Below are positions 6,949 through 40,800 of a stretch of 64,000 nt of DNA, one piece after another (the first letter of the stretch is position 1; each line of letters starts with the position of its first letter). This DNA is from Owenia fusiformis (Eukaryota; Annelida; Polychaeta; Sabellida; Oweniidae). The notes under the pieces were generated by a model. It did not search any database. It was not told the DNA's origin and worked only from the letters and a program-made list of their open reading frames with translations. The translations under genes were made by a program, and so were the position numbers. Where the stretch lies: assembly GCA_903813345.2 (NCBI GenBank), contig CAIIXF020000010.1:29040425-29104424 (forward strand). The letters are read 5' to 3'.

Positions 6949-7006
6949 TGGATATAGTCTGGCCAATTGAGAAGTTGAGCCGAAGACTCATAAATAACGG
7001 TCAGTC

Positions 7007-8158
7007 ATGATGGCCAACTGCACGGTTTTCAATAATTTTAGTAATGACAAATGTACAAATGTCACTGAAAAGCAAGGAGAAAGGGGAATGACAGAAAACA
7101 AGACCTTACTAGCACCAACTCTGCAAATTTTTATAGCAGTCATAGTATTTTTCGTGAATATTTTAGTTGTGATTGCAATTAAGCGCTACAAAAAATTGCA
7201 GACAGTTTCAAATATATTCCGTGGATACTTAGCTATGAATGACACTATATATGGAGTAATATTGATCGTAAGAGGAACATTTGAAATATCTGGAATTTTA
7301 AATCGGACAATGCCCTGTCTTATCATTAACACATTTGTTATCACATCAGCAGGAGTAACCATGACGGGTGTTCTTCTGCTTTCGATTGAAATGTTTCTAG
7401 CGACAAAGCAAAAATGGGTACATGGGGCATTTAGTAAGAAAACTGCTTATTCTCTTATATTATTGACTGTTGCTATTTGGATGGTGTATGTCAGCAGTTT
7501 TCTGTTGTTTCATAGAAATAGGCGCACAGACAAGGGTTGCCATGTAAGCAATGGTCTTATCCATGAGGATCATTTGTTGGGAATATGTATCATCACATTT
7601 CTGCACTTTCTAGTTCTCCTCATTCTCCAATGTTTAACATTCCGAAACCTTCAAAAACATGTAGCGAAACTTAAGGAAGTCGGTATGATATCACAAAAAC
7701 CAAAACTGCACTTAAGAAACATAAGACATATTAAAGTATCACCATTCAACAATGCCAATGATCTAAATTCGAAGTCTGACAATCCCGTGACCATAGAGAC
7801 GAACACTGGATACAACAATAAGAATCCTCAATTGTTCAATCCAACTCCTGGATGTTCCAGTTCAACTACCGGATTCTACAGTCAGAATTCTAAGTGGCCC
7901 GATCCAACTCCTGGATGTTCCAGTTCAACTACAGGATTGCAGGGTCAGAATCCGAAGTTGCCCGATCCAACTCCAGGATGTTCCAGTTCAACTACAGGAT
8001 TGCACGGTCAGAATTCGAACTTGCCCGATCCACCTCCAGGATGTTCCAGTTCAACTACCGGATTCTACAGTCAGAATTCTAAGTTGCCCGATCCAACTCC
8101 TGGATGTTCCAGTTCTACATACTTACATGTAAGCAGGGTCCTGTTCCTATGTGAATAG
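7007..8158 (+). pseudogene. Truncated rhodopsin-like GPCR, tandem paralogue of 14489-16474
   Basis: The 383-codon, intronless frame matches the downstream receptor through TM5. It has an N-terminus with NxT/NxS sites, TM1 about residues 33-59 with the conserved Asn, TM2 with LAMND, TM3 after the Cys in MPCL, ECL2 with DKGC (disulfide pair present), and TM4 and TM5. The third intracellular loop has five units of the 21-residue PTPGCSSSTTG repeat (from 7814) against thirteen in the paralogue. The fifth unit is interrupted at about 8117 and joined directly to the paralogue's last codons in another frame, so TM6 and TM7 are absent. About 340 bp are missing. The start is MM; the second ATG (7010) aligns with the paralogue's start. 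It would make a five-helix protein, so it is probably a pseudogene; a dominant-negative role is only a possibility. Confidence 0.75.
7814..8118 (+). repeat. 63-bp coding tandem repeat, about 5 units
   Basis: In-frame 63-bp units encode 21 residues with core PTPGCSSSTTG and variable spacer (FYSQNSK, LQGQNPK, LHGQNSN). The first unit is degenerate (NNKNPQLFN) and the last is cut by the deletion that removed TM6-TM7. Confidence 0.9.
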
Positions 8159-14433: not shown

Positions 14434-14488
14434 ATAGGTATAGTCTGTTAAGTTAAGTAGTTCAGCGGAACACTCAAGAACAGTCACG

Positions 14489-16474
14489 ATGGCGAATTGC
14501 ACGCTTTTCAATAATTTCAGTAGTGATGAAAAATTATGCACAACTGTCACTCATATGCAAAAAACAACTATGACAGAAATCAAGACCTTACTAGCACCAA
14601 CTCTGCAAATTTTTGTAGCAGTCATAGTATTTTTCGTGAATATTTTAGTTGTGATGGCAATTAAGCGCTACAAAAAATTACAGACAGTTTCAAATATATT
14701 CCGTGGATGCTTAGCTTTGAATGACACTATATTTGGAGTAATATTGATAGTAAGAGGAACATTTGAAATATCTGGAATATTAAGTCAGTCAATACCCTGT
14801 CTAATTATTAACGTATTTGTAATCACATCAGCAGGAGTAACCATGACGGGTGTTCTTCTGCTATGGATTGAAATGTTTCTAGCAACAAGGCAAAAATGCG
14901 TAAATGGGGCATTTAGTAAGAAAACTGCTTATGCTCTCATATTATTCACTGTAGCTATTTCGATTGTTTATGGCAGCAGTTTTCTGTTGTTTCATAGAAA
15001 CAGGCGCACAGACAAAGGTTGCCATGTAAGCAATGGTCTTATCCATGAGAATCATTTGTTGGGAGTATGTATCATCATGTTTTTGCACTTAATAGTTCTC
15101 CTCATCCTACAATTGTTAACATTCCGAAACCTTCACAAACATGTGGCGCATCTTAAAGATCTTGGTATGATATCACAAAACCCAAAAATGCGTTCAAGAA
15201 ACATAAGACATCTTAAAGTAGCACCATTCAACAATGATTTAAATTTGAAGTCTGACAATCCCGTGACCATAGAGACGAACACTGGATTCAACAATAAGAA
15301 TCCTCAATTGTTCAATCCAACTCTAGGATGTTCCAGTTCAACTACCGGATTCTACAGTCAGAATTCTAAGATGCCTGCTCCAACTCCTGGATATTCCAGT
15401 TCAACTACAGGATTGCACGGTCAGAATTCGAAGTTGCCTGATCTAACTCCTGGATGTTCCAGTTCAACTACAGGATTGCACGGTCAGAGTTCTCAGTTGC
15501 CTGATCCAACTCCTGGATGTTCAAGTTCAACTACAGGATTGAACGGTCAGAGTTCTCAGTTGCCTGATCCAACTCCTGGATGTTCCAGTTCAACTACAGG
15601 ATTACACGGTCAGAGTTCTCAGTTGCCTGATCCAACTCCTGGATGTTCCAGTTCAACCACAGGATTGCATGGTCAGAATTCGAAGTTGCCCGATCTAACT
15701 TCAGGATGTTCCAGTTCAACCACAGGATTGCATGGTCAGAATTCGAAGTTGCCCGATCCAACTCCTGGATGTTCCAGTTCAACTACAGGATTGCACGGTC
15801 AGAGTTCTCAGTTGCCTGATCCAACTCCTGGATGTTCCAGTTCAACCACAGGATTGCATGGTCAGAATTCGAAGTTGCCCGATCTAACTTCAGGATGTTC
15901 CAGTTCAACTACAGGATTGCATGGTCAGAATTCGAAGTTGCCTGATCCAACTTCAGGATGTTCCAGTTCAACTACAGGATTGCATGGTCAGAATTCGAAG
16001 TTGCCTGATCCAACTTCAGGATGTTCCAGTTCAACTACCGGATTCTACAGTCGGAATTCTAAGTTGCCCGATCCAACTCCTGGATGTTCTGGTTCAAATA
16101 CCGGAATTGTCGGTCAGAATGAAAATACTATAATGGAAAGGAAAACAAAATTGCCTTGCAGTAATTTGCAAACTAATGACGTAAGTTCAAACAGACTTTA
16201 TTTTCAATGGGCACGCCGCATGTCAAGAATTGCAAAACTTATAAGTTTCATACTAATATCCTTTATTATTTGCTATACCCCAATGATGGTTTGTGTACTC
16301 CTATATTCAATCCACCCTGGGAATTTTATTAATGCAAATGTAAACTTCATTACTGCGACTCTAGTTTTTTGCAATTCATTCACAAATGTCATTGTGTATC
16401 TTACTATGAGCAAGGATTACAGGAAAGCTTTCAAACACATACTTACATGCAAGCAGGGTCCTGTTCCTATGTGA
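14489..16474 (+). CDS. Rhodopsin-like (class A) GPCR with repeat-bearing third intracellular loop
   Basis: An intronless 661-codon receptor gene. Residues 1-35 form an extracellular N-terminus with N-glycosylation sites (NCT, NFS). TM1 is about 36-59 with Asn51; TM2 about 68-89 with LALND (Asp79); Cys104 starts TM3; Glu128-Met-Phe stands where DRY is usual. TM4 is about 146-167, Cys178 in ECL2 is the disulfide partner, and TM5 is about 189-211. The third loop (about 212-580) holds thirteen PTPGCSSSTTG repeats (268-539). TM6 is about 583-607 with CYTP (595-598). TM7 is about 617-638 with NVIVY (633-637) in place of NPxxY, followed by an Arg/Lys-rich helix-8 start and Cys. It is a plasma-membrane receptor with unknown ligand; the missing Pro and altered DRY suggest unusual coupling. 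A TATA box lies 62 bp upstream. The truncated tandem copy is at 7007-8158. Confidence 0.88.
   Translation: MANCTLFNNFSSDEKLCTTVTHMQKTTMTEIKTLLAPTLQIFVAVIVFFVNILVVMAIKRYKKLQTVSNIFRGCLALNDTIFGVILIVRGTFEISGILSQSIPCLIINVFVITSAGVTMTGVLLLWIEMFLATRQKCVNGAFSKKTAYALILFTVAISIVYGSSFLLFHRNRRTDKGCHVSNGLIHENHLLGVCIIMFLHLIVLLILQLLTFRNLHKHVAHLKDLGMISQNPKMRSRNIRHLKVAPFNNDLNLKSDNPVTIETNTGFNNKNPQLFNPTLGCSSSTTGFYSQNSKMPAPTPGYSSSTTGLHGQNSKLPDLTPGCSSSTTGLHGQSSQLPDPTPGCSSSTTGLNGQSSQLPDPTPGCSSSTTGLHGQSSQLPDPTPGCSSSTTGLHGQNSKLPDLTSGCSSSTTGLHGQNSKLPDPTPGCSSSTTGLHGQSSQLPDPTPGCSSSTTGLHGQNSKLPDLTSGCSSSTTGLHGQNSKLPDPTSGCSSSTTGLHGQNSKLPDPTSGCSSSTTGFYSRNSKLPDPTPGCSGSNTGIVGQNENTIMERKTKLPCSNLQTNDVSSNRLYFQWARRMSRIAKLISFILISFIICYTPMMVCVLLYSIHPGNFINANVNFITATLVFCNSFTNVIVYLTMSKDYRKAFKHILTCKQGPVPM
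15290..16105 (+). repeat. 63-bp coding tandem repeat, 13 units
   Basis: One 60-bp degenerate unit and twelve 63-bp units encode 272 residues. The core is (L/P)PDPTPGCSSSTTG with spacer LHGQNSK or LHGQSSQ. Two higher-order patterns are visible: SSQ-type units 4-6 and alternation of NSK/SSQ in units 7-10, suggesting expansion by unequal exchange of multi-unit blocks. Units 2 and 13 (FYSQNSK, FYSRNSK) are the edge types shared with the truncated paralogue. Confidence 0.92.
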
Positions 16475-28836: not shown

Positions 28837-31800
28837 ATACAAGTTTTTTATGCTCATATTGACGTTCTTTGCATATACAAGCTACCATTTGTCCAGAAAG
28901 CCCATCAGTGTTGTCAAGGTAAGTAAATGATTTGTATGGTTTGAGAGGTTTTTATGTCACCACCAGGTGGTGGAATATATTGTTATTGTCTCCAAGTTTT
29001 TTGGAGACAGAGTTTGGTGGTCAGTGTTTGGAGTTCGGCGTCTGTAACAATTTTCATTTGGTGTCTGTAACAATTTTCATTTGGTGTCTGTAACAATTTT
29101 CATTTGGTGTCTGTAACAATTTGCATTAGGCGTCTGTAACAATTTGCATTTGGTGTCTGTAACAATTTGCATTTGGTGTCTGTAACAATTTGCATTTGGT
29201 GTCTGTAACAATTTGCATTTGGTGTCTGTAACAATTTGCATTAGGCATCTGTAACAATTTGCATTTGGTGTCTGTAACAATTTTCATTTGGTGTCTAACA
29301 ATTTTCATTTGGTGTCTGTAACAATTTTCATTTGGTGTCTGTAACAATTTGCATTTGGTGTCTGTAACAATTTGCATTTGGTGTCTGTAACAATTTGCAT
29401 TTGGTGTCTGTAACAATTTGCAATAACTTACAAGGTGGTGAAATTTTGTCATGTTGCCTTGCCTCAGCTTTATTTTCAAATGTTACCTGTTGTTCATATA
29501 ATTTATATCATATTTTTATGAATATGATGTTTGATGAAGTCATAATCATAGAAGATAATTGTAAGCACGCGTCCCATAATGTGAAGGACCTGAGAGCTTA
29601 GAGATTAAATATTATTTAGAAATGTGAAAGTGCTCTCGACTGATTTGCTCTCATAGAAAAAAGCTTGCACTCACTTCAAATAAAATCAAATCAACCACCA
29701 ATTTTCTGTAAATGGACAATATTTAAGACAATTTTAAACATGTCACTGACCAGCGAATCAATAGGCCTACATTATGAATACTCAGATCTTAGTAAATGAT
29801 GTAAAACTAGAAATTGCATTATTTGTTAATCAAAGGTGTGTCTTCATCAAATATGTTTGTTTCTGTATTTACTTGATTAATAGTTTGTTTTAGAAAATAT
29901 TAATAATTATTTTCTACAACTTCAGCCAGTATTGCACAAGAACTGCTCAACAGCTAGGCCAATAAATGTCACCAAAAATCATATCGAGAACATCACAACT
30001 GACTGTGGATATGCACCTTTCGGTAAGTAATCAATCGGGCCTAATATGTGTTTTCTCAACATTGTCAAGACACCAAGACCCCATTCCCTTTACTCCTTCT
30101 TTCGTATATACTGTGTACGGTGAGGGATGGGAGGGGGGTACATACAGGCTGTTGAGAAAATAGACTACATGATCTCCAGACTTAAAAAAGAAGGAAATAA
30201 AATGGTTTTTCATATATAATTCAGTGTGTCATGTATCAGTATATATAAGTATTTATGTAAGTATTTATGTAAGTATTTATGTAAAAGCAATTAATACTAC
30301 ACTCATGTATTTCTATAACTTATTTTTGAACACATTAACAGGTACACTGTAACCAATGTGAAGTGATCATCACTTGAACCTATTCAGACACTTGACTCCT
30401 TTTGGTTAACCTTTTTTATTTAATGCTTGTATCTCTAAAAGAGAGATTCATATACAGAATTTAAGTATTTTAATGCTAGCATCTGGGTCTCAGATTAGAA
30501 CCTATTATATGGACTTCATAATTATTGAATGGCATGTTCAGGCCCGTAGCCAGGATTTGCCAAGGCGGAGTTTCCAAAATTCCCAGGGGGGTTCACATCT
30601 GACAATTACTTCAAGTGCTCAAAATGGTGAAAAACTGCATGATTTTGAAAGAAATTTTGGCCATGGGGGGGGGGGGGGTTCATCGAACCCTGCAAACACC
30701 CCCTGGCTACGGTGTCTTTACTGATGTCTTTACTTTTTTCTGTTTCAACTTTTTGTTCAATTTTGTTTGGTCCCAGCGGTGATCAGATTAGACAAAATTA
30801 CACCATATACCTAAAGTCATAGTGATCATGGTATAAAATGAAATGTCAACAGATTGATAATTAACATAGAACTTCTATGTAAAATGTTTGATTCATTTCC
30901 AATAAAAGTAAAATAACATATTTGTATTATTTCAGATGGCAAAAGTTACGAGGAAATGCTTGGTAGCCTGGACTATGCCTACCTCTTTGCTTATGCAGTT
31001 GGCATGTTTCTCAGGTACAGTTTCATACAGTCTTGGAGAAAGCATCAATAAGTCATGGCAGATTTTAGCCCTAAATATAAAATGGTCTGAGTTGCCAACC
31101 ATTTTGTTTAAATTATCCTTTAAGGTTAGGATTTCCCTTCTCCAAATCAGCAGAAAATGGTACGGGGATTAGTTCAAACTGTCAGTTTTTGAATGATTTT
31201 GGGCTACTTCTGTGTCGATTAATTCTAGGATTGATCATTTGCCCAAAGAAAATTAAAACAGCACCTTCTCTATATTGTAAGCTCACTTTGGTTTATAAAT
31301 TGACTCCAAAATAAAAACATGTGCAAATCTATCTTGTTTTTTTCTTTCAGTGGCCATATCGCGGAGAGAGTCAATCTCCGCTATTTCCTGACAGGCGGCA
31401 TGTTATTGAGCGGAATTTTCACGATGATGTTTGGGTTTGCAAGATATTGGAAGATACACAGTTTTACATATTTCATTGCAATGCAGGTGAGGTGAAATTA
31501 TCAGATTTTTTAATTCTTGGTTTAAATCAATGAAAACAAAAAATATCGAAATCAACACTTAACTGTCAGCCATTTTGAAAGAAAAAGAAGGTAATGGGCG
31601 TGACCTTCTCTTATACTAGATGAGCGTGGTGTAAAAGTGGTTTTGAAAAATGGCAAATTTCTCTTCATGTAGGTTATTTGTGGTTTATTATTCTACATTG
31701 ATTCTGAAAACATTGGTGTCTAGCATTTTGGAAATATGCAGATTTTTACCCCTTGGTGTAATTTTAAGGGGGTACTAGGAAAGCCATATATAGCCATACC

Positions 31801-34800
31801 AAAACTACTTTTACAACACGCTCATCCAGTATTAGTACTGACTAGTGGATATTCCAAATAGAATATTTGTGTTCTATATTTACTTGCAGATTATATGTGG
31901 TGCTTTCCAGTCCACTGGCTGGCCCAGTGTTGTAACAGTTGTAGGAAATTGGTTCGGCAAGGGCCGGTAAGCTGATAGTTTTACATTTATTTAATTAACA
32001 GTGAATTTAAGTGAAAATAGCACAAAAAGTAAACCTTCACATTCTCGTATTATCAAACTTGTTTAATTTACCAATGTGTTATTTTTTTTAGTAATTTTCA
32101 AATGATCAATAATATAGTTCTTAAGTTGTGAATTTATCTTGATGCAAAATGCGAAATTTTGAATTCTTGAAAAATTGGAAGAGGAGTGAAGTAATCAACA
32201 GTATTTTGTTGTCATTTTGAATCTTTTTGATTCAAACATATTTACCAACATAGTAGTAACTTTACCCCATGGTGACAATGCTTATGGATTGAGGTCATTT
32301 CTTTTGAACAACACAGTTCTTGATTTTAACAAGCTTATCTGAGATAAACTTTGTTCCCTTTTTTGAATGATGAACATTTTGTTAAAAGTTTAATTTTACT
32401 TTTGATCAACTATTTATACCTTAACAGTAGTTCTTGAACTTTATAACTTTACTTCCTTATCTTTGGTTATTTTGACGTTTTTAAGAATAAAGCGGTCAAA
32501 CCTTTTCAAATATTTTCTTGTTGTATACTTTCAAGCATACTTTTGCAGAATAAAAGCCGTAAAGCATCTATAATGCACTGCTCTGTAAAAATTGTTATAC
32601 TTTAAAATTTACAGAGGATTGTTGTAGTTTTAATGCTTGAGCTCTTCACAGATGTGAAATTTCAAACATTTTGATAGATGTGAATCTGAAATGAATATAC
32701 TGAAAGGGTTAAATGAGTCATTTTTTCTCCAAAATACTTTCTTGTCACCTGATTTTAAGAGTAGGCAGTGAATTAGTTCATCTATTTGTTTGACACTTGA
32801 AATATAGTTTTTTTATTAGACCCTGACTGAATGTTAATTTTCCACCTAAAATTAAGGGGGGGCCTAAAAAGGTATCCCAAACAAAATGTGCTCCAAATGC
32901 CAAAACATGCCACCTATTATCTGTATTTTGCATTAATCATTGAAAAACTTAAAATACGAGGGTTGTCTAAAATGTCTTGAAATTTTTACTCTAATTTCAT
33001 CAAATTTTATTCTTTTGTTGTCATATTTCACTCGGATGTACATGTTTTGATAAAGATCTTCTGTTTCAGACGTGGTTTTATAATGGGAGTCTGGAACTCA
33101 CATACCTCAGTGGGAAATATACTTGGCTCATTGATAGCTGGGGTCTTCGTCAATGACAATTGGGGACTCTCATTCATTGTGCCAGGGATTATCATATCTA
33201 CAATGGGAATTGTAGTCTTCTTCTTTTTAGTGCCAAGTAAGTGATTTCAGTCCTCAATTCTTGTGCCATATATGGTACTGTTAGTGCATGCCAAGTAATA
33301 TTTAGTAATGTGGAGTATGTCTTTTCTATGCCATGTACATAATAGTTTTTAGTTGCATATTTATAATTTATGGAAAACCTCTTCAATTTTCCAATCTTCA
33401 ATCTTTTCTTTTTTGGCCCACTAGATCCTGTATATGGGTGTACATCAACTAGCTATGAGCCTTTTATTACACTTCTTGACATGAGCCATGTGCCACTTAA
33501 AATTTTCAGAATAGAAATATTTTGACCTGGTTATTATGAGTGTTGGTATACTAGCTGTATGCTTTCATTAGGCTAGTTACATTAAGACCCTCTATGTGCC
33601 ATACCCATCCCACCCAAAGCCTCGCTACAACATTTTGTTGAGACATCCATGTTTTTTGTTGCATGACTACAGTAGCCTTTGACATTTTGAGCTGGTATGT
33701 CTTACGAATGTTGTGTACCACTAAAAGCTTGGAGCCTTGAAGATGCATAATTAATGTCTGTTTCTATGTTTTAGAACCAGAGGATATAGGCTGTGATTTA
33801 CCAGATCAAAGTGGCGGGGAGGTAAGTGCATTGCGTTTTTTCAATTCTCCATTACTATGTCAGTTAGTGAAGACTTCTAAAAATGTGACTTGTACAAAAT
33901 ATTGTTCTTACACAAGGATGTTAAAGTATCATCATTTTTAAATGGTATAAAATTTGGGTAAGACTGAAAACAAGAAATATTTTGAAAATGAAATTGGATT
34001 TACAGGCATATAAGTAAAAACTCTTATTATGATCAGATTTTATCTCTTATTAATACCATTAAGTTAGAAACTTTTAATCCCCGACAGAATTTCTGAGTAC
34101 TTACAATGAGGTTTAAATTACATTTGGGAACAATTCTATTCAGTAATTAATGCATTTTTTATTTTCAGGAAAATAATTACAGGGTCCCTCCAGATCATAT
34201 TGAGGTAGGTGTCGTCTGCTCTTAGGGTCAAGGTCACTTATTTTGATCATGTGATCACATTTTTGCATTTAAATAGCTATAATAGCTGTAATTCTCATCC
34301 TTACTGATGTAGGTGGATTTATGTCCATGGAAACCTTTATTGAATAAAGAAATCTAGTTTGTTAAAGACAGTGTTTTGCATAATATTTTCTAAACTGTGT
34401 GTTCGATTTCAGCGTGAACACTATTACGAGTCTCTCAATCAAAATGTAAGTTTTAACAATATTAAGGCTTATTATACGTATACTCTAAATTGCATTAATA
34501 GTATAGAAAATATATGTTTTCTAAGTATCATCTATGCATTACGGTAGATTTCATTTATAAGAATTGGGTGAAACATTTAAGATGAAACCCACAGTAACAC
34601 ATATGATTCATTGTTTATCCTTAGGTGGGGTAGGAGGGAATTTTGATCAAAAGTTCAGCTTTTTGTTTCTTGTTCTTACAGAACATATTGACTCATCTCT
34701 TGAATGTGTCAATCTTTACCCCACTTTGTCACTATGAATACTGAACTAGTAAATGCATTCACTCTACTAAATTATAGATGTCACTTAGGAAGTATATGTT

Positions 34801-37800
34801 TTTTAAGTGTCACTTACTTCTGCATTACTGTGAATTTCATTTATAAGGATTAGGTGAAACATTTAAGATACATCCATTTTCCAACCAAACATATGTATAT
34901 ATTCCTATTTATTTATAACATTCCAAAAGCACCTATTCCCAAACCTCAAAAAAACTTTCACTTTTCCCTCCTATAAATCAAATCAAATAACATTGCAGAT
35001 TAGCTCAAGCTAGTCTTTATCTTCATTGTAGGCTACCTATCAGGTACTTAGTTGATGCATCTCATTTTTATTTCCCAAGCTTTATTAGATAAATTATGTA
35101 AGAAAATCATAATAGAATGTTCATTAATATGTAAAACTTGTTTCCTGTTTTTGTTTACCAATTGTCTTAAATTATAACCTAGGTCTCTATTCCCATGATC
35201 AAACATATCGCTATGTCTCAAGATTTTAATTCCATGAACCATTCAAACTAGACAGTTCCCAGATTTACATACAGTACTGCACTTCTTGGACCTTCCATGC
35301 TAACACACTGCAATGCATGGCTATACCTTCACTACTGACTCAAATATATAGATTGCCAAAAACCATAATAGATATTTGTAAAAATTTCATAGTCTCATTC
35401 CTAAACAGACTTTAAATTTTTTGAATAACAAATTTTAGAATTGCTTTACACACTTTTGAATTACAAAGCCCAGTAGTAACCTAAATACACTTTTGAATTA
35501 CAGGCTGATGATGACGATGAAGAGCCGCTAGTAAACAGTGAACAAGGACTCGTGAAGAAGGAAAAAGCAATCAGTTTTTTCAATGCTTTAAAAATACCTG
35601 TAAGTTGATATATTCATTTATGATACAAGTGCTTTAAAAATTGTAAAGGTTAATAATATACATTTTATTTATTGATAATCATTAGCAGTAATGGGGATGT
35701 ACTGAAAATGTTTTCTTGTCTAATGAATGTATGTATATATCTATTGCCCTTAATAAAAAGAGATGCATTCATGCAATTTTAAAAAGATCAATATGAACAA
35801 ACAAGCACAAAACTAATTCTAATCCATATAAATTGCCAACGTCAGGCTACTGCATTGACATTTGTACAAAATATATCATATTAAAACAGTTGTACATGAA
35901 TCCGAAGAATAAACCTTAAATGACTCAAAGGACACAACCCTTTTCAAAAGCTAAACTCTTTCAAAATTTTGGATTTAGATTTATATATGATCTCACCAGT
36001 ATCTTATTAGAGCATGTAGTAATACACTCTAATAATAAGTGAGAAGTGATTTACCCTTTGGGATCCATGTCTGTTATGTATACACCCCTATGTAAAAAGT
36101 GAAAGTGAAATAAAGTTACTTTGAAATTGAAAATTGAATTGAAATTGGTATAATATAGGACCTAATCACACATGTGGATTTGTCTCAAGTTAGTCCAGAT
36201 TCATCAAGTCACGGAAAGATGCCCATTGATGGATGTATCAATATAAGTGCTCTCTGCTTGGATAAACACCAAATTGTCAAATAACAGAGGATCATGTACT
36301 CAGTGTATTATATCACCATCAGAAGTGGTGACATTTTGTTATAGTCCCCAATTTTTTTGTGGGTGGTGTTTGGCATTCAGTCGTTGGCATTCAGTGTTTG
36401 ACAGTCAGTGTCTGTAACAAATGACAGGTCGTGACATTTTGCATGTTAATGTCTTGTAATATTCTTATGTTTTATTGCAGGGTGTTATAGAGTTTGCTCT
36501 GTGCCTTTTCTTTGCCAAACTGGTTAGCTATACATTCCTGTTCTGGTTGCCTAGTTACATAAAACACACAAGTAAGTCTTTACTTCTGATACGTTAATAG
36601 CTAGAAGCAGATTTATAAGAACAAAATATGAGGTATAAAAAAAATCCATTATATCTCATGAAGTTTTAAAATGTCAAAATCTTGAAATTCTCTTAAAAAA
36701 TGTGGTAAAATTAAAATCTCAGTTCATGCAATCTGATTGGATAATGCAAAAGAGCCAAAATAAAAGATGTCTGAGGGAATATGGATATTTTAAAAGTGAA
36801 GAATAAAGTAACCAGGTATTTAATGAACTCTCTAAAGTATACATATATAATATCGGAGTATCAGTAGTAAGCATAATTGTAGTGAGTGATTTTTGACAAA
36901 TGTTTTTTTATATTTTATATTTTGTGTATTGTTTCAGTGCACACTGACCCTGAAGTAGCTGCTGATTATTCTACTTTGTTTGACGTGGGTGGAATAGTAG
37001 GTATGTAATATTTTTGTAGCATTATAACATGAGGCCTAGGCGGGTTAATTTTCTGTTAAGTATTCATCATTTTCTTTTTCATGCATGCTCTATAATGCAA
37101 AAAGACTTGTTAAAATATAGGAATGCCTAAAAGGATTCTAAAAATGTAACAAAAACTTTTATCTAGGCAAGATTTGGTATGATCTGTTAAGCCCTGTTAA
37201 ACAGACTGTTAAATCATAAGGACCTACCATTAAAAGAAAGGAACATATTAACATAATGCAAAATCCATATTTTTACACAAAGTATACAGCTATAATAACT
37301 ATGCATAAGATTGGTTGCATTGTATTGTTTTAGGGGGTATTTTGGCCTAATTGTTTGTATTGTATTGGGTTAGGGGGTATTTTGGCCTAATTGTTTGTAT
37401 TGTATTGTTTTAGGGGGTATTTTGGCCTAATTGTTTGTATTGTATTGTTTTAGGGGGTATTTTGGCCTAATTGTTTGTATTGTATTGTTTTAGGGGGTAT
37501 TTTGGCCTAATTGTTTGTATTGTATTGTTTTAGGGGGTATTTTGGCCTTATTGTTTGTATTGTATTGTTTTAGGGGGTATTTTGGCCTAATTGTTTGTAT
37601 TGTATTGTTTTAGGGGGTATTTTGGCCTAATTGCTTGTATTGTATTGTTTTAGGGGGTATTTTGGCCTAATTGTTTGTATTGTTTTGTTTTAGGGGGTAT
37701 TTTGGCTGGTGTGGTATCAGATTTGACTGGAGCGAAAGCCACAACCTGTGTAGTAATGTTAGCATTTGCAGCACCTGCCGTAAGTTTAATCCAAACCTCA

Positions 37801-40800
37801 ATTTCTACTAGGTCATGCCAGTTACATGCATTTTCTCTCTGCAATTTCAATGAAGTTCCCTGTACTAATACGTTGGTTCATGTATTTCTATAAAATTTAG
37901 AAACGCAAGTTAATTTTTTATTGGATACCATAATTACAATCTTAATATGGCTGCAGTAATTTGTAATGTTAAATAATCACATATCCAGTGTATGATGCAT
38001 TTAGTTTCTTAAATCATAGCACAGAGTTAAATGTCAAGACTTGGTAAAGATAATACTATAGTTCTAGACATGATAGAGTTTTCTCATATGACTAACCAAG
38101 ATACAACCATCTTTACCCCATGCAAGATATTGCCATCTTTCATCCTAAAAAGTCACACGTGTAAGATGAGATTTACTTGTGACATCACTGGTCTATAAAC
38201 ATCAACAACATAGCAAGAAATACACCGTTGCTAAGAGTATCCATGCTCGTTCTACAAAACTAAGCTGTGACGTCATAACAACAGCTTTGTTGCCTCGTGT
38301 ATCCATGTATTTTCTACAATATTGTTATGACGTCATAACAATTGAAAGATGAAGTTCCATTAATCTGAAGCTATTTTGCACCCAGTTTTGTCATGAAAAC
38401 GTGAAAATAAAGCATAATACAGAGTCATATGAGAAAAACTTTCTTGTACTCGTACCTGTGCAATATCGTCCATTCTTGACTTGCTTTGATAATGTTTCTT
38501 TATCTCGTCTGCGACTCGATAAAGAAGAATTATCAAAGCTCATCAAGAATGGACGATCTTGCACAGGTACTCATATAAGAACCTCTATTTCTCATATGAC
38601 TAACAAAGATACAGCCATCTTTACCCCATGCAAGATATTGCCATCTTTCATCCTAAAAAGTCACACGTGCAAGATGAGATTTACTTGTGACATCATTGGT
38701 CTATAAACATCAACAACATGACAACGGACACACCGTTTCTATGAGTATCCAAGCTAACTCTTCACAACTAAGCTGTGACGTCATAACAATGGAGCTTTGT
38801 TGCCACGTGTATCTATGTATTTTCTTCAATATTGTTATGACGTCATAACAATTGAAAGATGAAGTTCAATTAATTTGAAGCTATTTTTCACTCAGTTTTA
38901 TGATAAAATGGTGAAAATATGGCATAATACAGAGTCATATGAGAAAAACTTTCTTGTACTCGTACCTGTGCAATATCGTCCATTCTTGACTCGCTTTGAT
39001 AATGTTTCTTTATCTCGTCTTTGACTTGATAAAGAAGAATTATCAAAGCTCATCAAGAATGGACGATCTTGCACAGGTACTCATATAAGAACCTCTATAT
39101 CTGAGTTATATAATAAGAATCCTCACTCGACCTTTTGTAATGGCTGGATTTAAAAAGTTAGCTTTATAACTGTATAAGCAAGTTTCTTATTTTCATTCCA
39201 GATGTTTATTTATGAGACATATGCTAGTGTTAGTAATTTAGCAAACATTCTGCTACTGCTGATCACAGGTAGCCTGGTTAATGGTCCATATGCTCTCATC
39301 ACGACGGCTGTTTCAGCTGACCTTGGAACGCACCAAAGTTTACGTGGAAATTCACATGCCCTAGCAACTGTCACTGCAATTATAGATGGCACTGGCTCAA
39401 TGGGTAGGTCCCTGAAGTAGAATTGATAAAACGACAAGAGTCCAACAGAGAAATGGGATGCATTTTCTATTTGTGGTACACATCGCCTGCTTTGGTGATA
39501 ATCAAAATACATAATGTACTCATAATGTTTAGTACGTTGTACCTTATGTATTTAGAATTTCAGAGATGTTTAATGTTTAATTGTTCCTAATCATATATCT
39601 ACAAAAAGTTAACAAATAAAATCACCAACATTCTTTTGTTAAGGTAAAAAAAACATACATAAGAACACATATGTACAATGTGCCTCACAATTGTGTCTTC
39701 CAGGTGCCGCTTTAGGGCCCCTTCTAACAGGCCTAATCAACCCAACAGGATGGCATAATGTCTTCTATATGTTAATAGCTGCAGATATTGCTGCACTTTT
39801 GGTAGGTTCACTTGCAGCAATCGGACCAATAAATTGGTGTAATGCAATCAAACATATCGCTATTATGATCCTCATAGTGGTTACGATGTTTGTTGTGTTT
39901 GTCATTTACAGTACTGGATCTCAGTACTTGACTGGTCGAAGATTGATGTAAATTAGTACTCTATTTTAATTTAAGTACAAAACATTTTCTTATTCTCTGA
40001 CGAAGTAATGTTAGATAAATTTTTATTGGTATGTTCAGTGAAGATGAAAAATGCATTTAAATCAAAGGGATAATTGGTGTAATTCTTATCTGGAATAACC
40101 CTAAAATATTATTTTTATTGATTTATAACTTACACAATCATTCAGTAGTCCTGAATGTGAACCCTCTTTCCTGTAATTATTGAAGTTTGAACAAACTGTT
40201 CATGAAGATTATGAATTTTAAAAGTGAAAAAGGTGCAAGTACATTTTATGTCGGACATTATGTTATGGTCTCAAACTTATTTTGTGATGGCTGTTAGTGT
40301 CATGCATTCCACGTCTGTGACAAATGGCAGGTGGTGAGACTTTGCGTGTTTAATGCCTTGTTTCAGTTTGTAACTTGTACTGCTTACTGGGTGATTTGTT
40401 TCTAGCTTTGATAATTTTAAAAAATATTGTGTAAGTTACATATCTGAGTTTATTTGAATTTTAGGGTGAATGATTTGTAAATGCCACATATTTAGGAATT
40501 TAGATAACATGGGCTAGTTAAACTAGGTGGAAAGGGTTTACTGATATTAAAGTTGGTACAACTTATTTGAAGATTCTACCCTGTTTTCACAATTTTAGTA
40601 AAAAAGTAATGACAAATTATGATTGTAAAGTATATGGGCATTTCAATCTTTTTTTGCATTTATTTAAGGGATATTTTGAAATGTGACCTTATATGAGTTT
40701 ATCTATGATTCAATATAGTGTTTTTTAGGATATTTCAGACTTTTCTGTGTGCTTTGCTGTAATTGTATTTTTATTCTTTCAAATTCCAGTTGCTGCTGAG

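Follow-up and report, generated by a model that had tools for sequence, protein, structure and literature searches.

How does an exon whose acceptor is preceded by nine near-copies of itself come to be spliced, and from what does such an arrangement grow? The question arises in a 64,000-nucleotide stretch of Owenia fusiformis DNA (hereafter the window), in which a 40-bp minisatellite runs into an exon of an SLC37A2-like gene. The array is a real splice-acceptor minisatellite, comparable to the “mirages” of lancelet genes, and a second case exists in the same genome. Of the readings considered, the one that we regard as moderately probable is that the array is of the mirage type, in which duplication of a splice boundary gives rise to a minisatellite, with exon definition mostly selecting the last copy. 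The evidence on the array comes from the sequence of one genome.

The host gene

28837–39951, + strand: gene of an SLC37A2-like sugar-phosphate exchanger; 13 exons were located, the first exon not among them (spliced frame and homology)
36938–37000, + strand: upstream exon; the next intron, 37001–37693, starts GTATGT
37694–37779, + strand: 86-nt exon, 28 residues (spliced frame; aligned to PDB 9ucm)
37780–39201, + strand: downstream intron, 1422 nt, donor GCC/GTAAGT

With the acceptor ending at 37693, the 13 exons form an open frame of 489 codons, and the initial annotation, which had taken the true acceptor to be the tenth and last copy, is upheld on this point. Exon 37694–37779 presumably encodes the interhelical loop that bears the MFS motif. 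The spliced protein matches Pfam MFS_1 (E=8.4e-45), and a hand-joined 376-aa version of it, used as query, matches SLC37A2 (PDB 9ucm, E=3.4e-153), in the alignment of which the product of the exon lies against GIVAGLVSDYTNGRATTCCVMLILAAPM. Two further repeats were seen in introns of this gene. At window positions 29040–29422, a 23-bp minisatellite of 16.7 copies lies in another intron, where it starts about 120 nt past the donor and leaves that donor uncovered, and at 38059–39097, in the downstream intron, a pair of similar blocks, about 0.5 kb long and containing inverted-repeat stretches, may, by eye, represent a duplicated small transposon.

Anatomy of the array

37310–37706, + strand: 40-bp minisatellite, 9.9 copies, 96% match (TRF and unit tables)
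37332–37653, + strand: nine decoy acceptors, with AGs ending at 37333, 37373, 37413, 37453, 37493, 37533, 37573, 37613 and 37653
37666–37671, + strand: CCTAAT, candidate branch site of the true acceptor, its A at -24 being 37670 (putative role, assigned from the motif)
37692–37693, + strand: true acceptor AG, top score among the ten

Each 40-bp unit amounts to a whole 3' splice site, comprising a branch-like CCTAAT and a U-rich tract, then TTTTAG with the 13 bases that open the exon, and ten acceptor copies are thereby set before one exon, nine of them decoys and the tenth continuous with exon 37694–37779. The end positions of the AGs follow 37333 + 40k and reach 37693 in the last copy. CTAAT agrees with the metazoan branch consensus. 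A ninefold repetition of the T-rich tract, the AG and the 13 exonic bases had already been described, and is confirmed with its 40-bp period both by TRF and by a 22-base probe allowing at most 3 mismatches, which matched at ten sites 40 bp apart and not once in 100 dinucleotide shuffles. Units 3–6 and 8 show no difference from the reference unit, while unit 2 carries two changes and units 7, 9 and 10 one each, all of them 5' of the unit's own AG; unit 1 matches the reference from -24 onward only, with two mismatches. The 13 exonic bases are the same in all ten units. In units 2–10, CCTAAT (with A at -24) is replaced only in unit 7, by CCTTAT, and the TTTTAG before the exonic bases only in unit 2, by GGTTAG. 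The true site is distinguished from the decoys by a T in place of A at -10.

Tandem repeats are often misassembled, and it may be asked whether the array, or its copy number, is an artefact of assembly. One lancelet array is indeed described, in the portion of PMC3087553 drawn on here, as having looked aberrantly assembled in a draft. However, the units at this locus carry distinct changes, the array is found at a single locus in the 498-Mb assembly, and a KIF4-like gene contains another array of this kind, such that an artefact appears very unlikely. Two DNA searches of the assembly found neither a second haplotype nor a paralogous copy of the array, one of them returning the locus itself and nothing else, the other two extra matches that were rejected as array copies, both being TATTG-rich simple repeats.

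Strength of the decoys and consequences of their use

Acceptors were scored with a model of 58 acceptors, namely 12 of the SLC37A2-like gene and 46 of family exons from the same genome, and, as a control, with a model of the gene's 12 other acceptors alone. The larger model is small and its 46 non-SLC37 members were picked by score (>5 bits), so that percentiles derived from it are rough. With this model the true site scores 12.5 bits and eight decoys 10.0–10.6, that is, no more than 2.5 bits lower, and nine of the ten AGs thus retain their splice signals, the exception being unit 2 at -2.3. With the 12-acceptor model the corresponding values are 12.7, 10.5–11.3 and 3.0, and the eight better decoys exceed nine of the 12 scores that the gene's real acceptors receive when each is left out of the model in turn. 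As these eight score like real acceptors, their local sequence makes them competent; what places the true site above them is its T at -10.

Translation of the nine decoy readings bears out the earlier statement that most decoys give five correct codons and then a stop: decoys 1–5 and 7–9 read GGILA followed by TAA, whereas decoy 6 has no immediate TAA and reaches a stop 21 codons later. The TAA that ends eight of the nine readings is part of the CCTAAT motif, and after decoy 9 the in-frame stop reached is TAA 37668–37670, inside the candidate branch site of the true acceptor itself. Use of any of the nine decoys would therefore create a premature stop, in each case upstream of further introns. 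Unit 2 as a poor acceptor and unit 6 as the unit free of an immediate stop had been put forward as natural comparisons, and the scores and readings agree.

Each of the ten units also has GGG/GTATTT 3 nt after its AG, and the added GGG would keep the frame. It could accordingly be proposed that splicing proceeds stepwise through the array in a recursive-like manner, each decoy junction being re-spliced with one in-frame glycine added per step. However, GTATTT scores 4.3 bits, below all 12 identified donors of the gene (the lowest being 5.1), AG and GT lie 3 nt apart rather than juxtaposed as in a recursive site, and splicing between neighboring units would entail introns of 37 nt. Such a route is exceedingly improbable.

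Choice among ten acceptors

The initial annotation reasoned from a first-AG choice, and this premise is weak. NAGNAG-type tandem acceptors resemble the present arrangement in that one exon is preceded by several AGs, but those AGs are a few nt from each other and have a common branch point; here, by contrast, neighboring AGs are 40 nt apart and, in nine cases of ten, have a branch-like motif of their own. According to the portions of PMC9225289 relied on here, the choice between acceptors at least 20 nt apart typically falls in the first step, each having its own tract and branch point, and first-AG is for that reason not the relevant rule. The same portions report that in human acceptor pairs at least 20 nt apart the upstream site is preferred overall, as was the upstream acceptor in the work of Reed and Maniatis cited there, and use of decoys thus stays quite possible. 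Long flanking introns are reported to favor the sites closest across the exon, with 250 nt as the cut-off for exon definition, although where both introns exceed 250 nt the upstream preference was significantly reduced rather than reversed (PMC9225289, same portions). At the present locus all flanking introns exceed that length, with 333–693 nt upstream, depending on the acceptor, and 1422 nt downstream, and the exon would measure 126–446 nt from the decoys versus 86 nt from the true site.

If the decoys do compete with the true site, a share of the transcripts could be lost to decay through premature stops, and transporter output would then be set by the number of repeats. This copy-number rheostat would draw on the eight decoys that score like real acceptors, on the stops with further introns downstream that all nine decoys give, on the human preference for upstream acceptors, and on the human ABCA7 VNTR, the length of which affects splicing and one unit of which can be retained out of frame (PMC5954066, as far as the parts used here report). 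However, the true site is the strongest of the ten, and lancelet arrays of the same layout are reported, in the parts of PMC3087553 and PMC3902484 consulted, without disturbance of the mRNA. The rheostat is consequently considered rather unlikely; tuning of transporter output by copy number is possible but unsupported here.

Under the mirage-type reading, the last copy stays joined to the real exon, having its own branch-like motif, the best U-rich tract and a distance of 86 nt from the exon's donor, and in most cases exon definition would most likely select it. The last position of the true acceptor follows from geometry, as only the copy adjoining the exon keeps the exon. The decoys, which lack a full exon, would leave as part of the intron, although some splicing to them might leak through and yield mRNAs with stops, which would decay. 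From sequence, then, splicing probably tolerates the array, with leakage possible. This reading is favored by the homogenized middle units, by the 13-exon frame that is open with the last site, by the top score of the true site, by flanking introns longer than the 250-nt cut-off, and by the lancelet arrays of like layout. Counting against tolerance are the eight decoys close to the true site in score, the human preference for upstream acceptors and the exon's own donor, GCC/GTAAGT, which at 5.1 bits is the weakest of the 12 identified in the gene.

Comparison with known systems

Minisatellite-like duplications of intron-exon boundaries, termed “mirages”, have been described in lancelet globin genes (PMC3087553), and further cases in PGBD5 and TnC (PMC3902484); what follows on them is limited to the parts of these reports drawn on here. 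As in the lancelet cases (Adh3, TnC, BflGb6, BflGb9 and PGBD5), tandem units of the present array span a splice boundary beside the genuine one, with the terminal unit, unit 10, continuing into the genuine exon, and many lancelet units likewise keep AG or GT signals. BflGb6, with 6 and 3 units of 150–160 bp in two haplotypes, is similar in that the 3' end of the intron and the 5' part of the exon are duplicated (PMC3087553). The lancelet unit sizes (10–72 bp in Adh3, then 60, 108 and 150–160 bp) bracket the 40 bp found here and the 159 bp of the second array described below. The present array differs in its ten copies, in having just 13 exonic bases, and in the branch-like motif of nine of its ten units. 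Further, the lancelet mirages are backed by RT-PCR, whereas this array was analyzed at the level of sequence; Adh3 data together with globin RT-PCR suggest regular splicing despite the mirages (PMC3087553).

The human ABCA7 intronic VNTR offers another parallel, in that each minisatellite unit has a splice site and a retained unit leads to a frameshift and premature stop, as with the decoys. However, its 25-bp unit contains a donor and its length effects have been measured, while the 40-bp unit here contains an acceptor (PMC5954066, in the parts used). In human genes, too, cryptic splice sites can be activated, and introns formed, by tandem repeats (PMC2812944, likewise in part). No other acceptor array was recognized among the papers listed by broader literature searches, as judged by titles and the openings of abstracts, which does not prove that there is none.

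A possible origin

The intron-exon boundary is probably older than the array, to judge from sequence comparison, because an SLC37 paralogue on contig C5 has an intron at the same codon and in the same phase (GGIVG/GTIGG, read from the sequence) and has no array at the matching boundary, where the sole TRF array, with a 20-bp unit, lies about 0.6 kb upstream. A tandem duplication across this old boundary may have copied about 37 nt, from the U-rich tract through the AG to the 13th exonic base, and CTA, as filler of 3 nt, would have made the junction read CCTAAT and so branch-like. Unequal exchange could then have multiplied and homogenized the 40-bp unit to ten copies. The unit structure, the identical middle units and the divergent edges are observed; the order of events we infer. 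The position of the array needs no special cause, since in 20,000 random placements of the eight tandem arrays of the window longer than 250 bp, this one included, at least one array covered one of the 25 boundaries of the SLC37A2-like gene in 60% of trials.

A second array in a KIF4-like gene

Contig C2, 23265600–23270300, - strand: KIF4-like gene, locus L089 (kinesin search of the same genome)

The kinesin search returned 18 matches spaced 158–159 bp apart on contig C2, and the protein encoded there is nearest KIF4 (PDB 3zfd, E=1.4e-42). The array comprises a 159-bp unit, made up of an acceptor and the start of the exon, in 17.9 copies, and in it the acceptor CCATAG is followed by about 127 nt shared with the real exon, bar a few synonymous changes, and by a short tail. 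All 17 decoys have an in-frame TAA in this tail, and the 18th copy continues into the exon. Boundaries were assigned by reading phase and kinesin homology, and the 58-acceptor model misfits this gene, giving the true acceptor -4.8 bits, the decoys -4.8 to -11.5, and the assigned donors 4.9 and 1.4.

The recurrence of such arrays could be taken to suggest a heritable dial, in which decoys would be used, each added unit would make splicing of SLC37A2 and KIF4 less productive, and individuals would acquire different set points through unequal exchange. Were the KIF4 decoys translated, or had they once been, mostly synonymous variation would be expected among them. Six of the eight types of exonic variant are synonymous, with P of 0.002–0.007 depending on transition weight and assuming independence of types, values that are too low because two of the six synonymous types always co-occur. 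However, variants born in the functional KIF4 exon and spread by exchange would explain the synonymy without translation, and the dial is judged quite improbable.

Ten near-identical acceptors before one exon, and 18 in the KIF4-like gene, constitute a natural experiment on the choice of 3' splice sites by position, with controls built in: unit 2 is weak, decoy 6 has no immediate stop, and unit 10 is strengthened by one T. The host is not a lancelet, and splice-boundary minisatellites thus reach beyond the group in which the literature search, within the portions of the sources used, found them named.

Recurrence elsewhere in the genome

Seven family lists with at least 586 matches, in which, for example, 124 of 876 Pkinase candidates were scored, were surveyed by eye for ladders, a procedure to which arrays that include little exonic sequence, like that of the SLC37A2-like gene, would be invisible. 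The KIF4 array was the only fixed-spacing ladder of at least three copies seen among the matches listed. In addition, 60 family-exon loci (L029–L088) were surveyed for TRF arrays of period at least 10 within 150 bp of a match, the ends considered being those of profile matches rather than verified splice sites. Arrays lay near the match in eight of the 60 loci, three of them overlapping a match end, and no array of at least three copies covered a match end in these 60. The three overlapping arrays, all from TRF, are as follows.

L068: 67 bp x 2.0, acceptor side of the match
L048: 17 bp x 2.2, donor side of the match
L064: 22–24 bp x 2.5, donor side of the match, units matching at 75%, possibly a chance case

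With one ladder among the matches listed and none in the 60 loci, long boundary arrays look uncommon, yet they recur.

At L068 (about 1429–1562), the start of an ABC-transporter exon is duplicated, with copied exonic sequence ending in TTCCAG directly before the second copy, and at L048 (about 1735–1772) the repeat spans the donor end of the match to a myosin exon and may be a small donor-side case. A pair of Pkinase exons at C10:2256896–2257205 was rejected as an array, being two diverged copies with no tandem array that read as ordinary alternative exons. On the - strand of contig C9 (37986009–37994334), twelve myosin-head exon matches cover profile positions of about 18–84 at irregular spacing, mostly 0.3–1 kb, and are perhaps alternative exons of a muscle myosin gene. 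Finally, the window contains at 6998–8158 and 14444–16474 two similar open frames, 7TM receptor-like by eye, which include a coding 63-bp (21-aa) minisatellite in 4.4 and 12.8 copies, respectively, the first frame ending before the last helices of the second.
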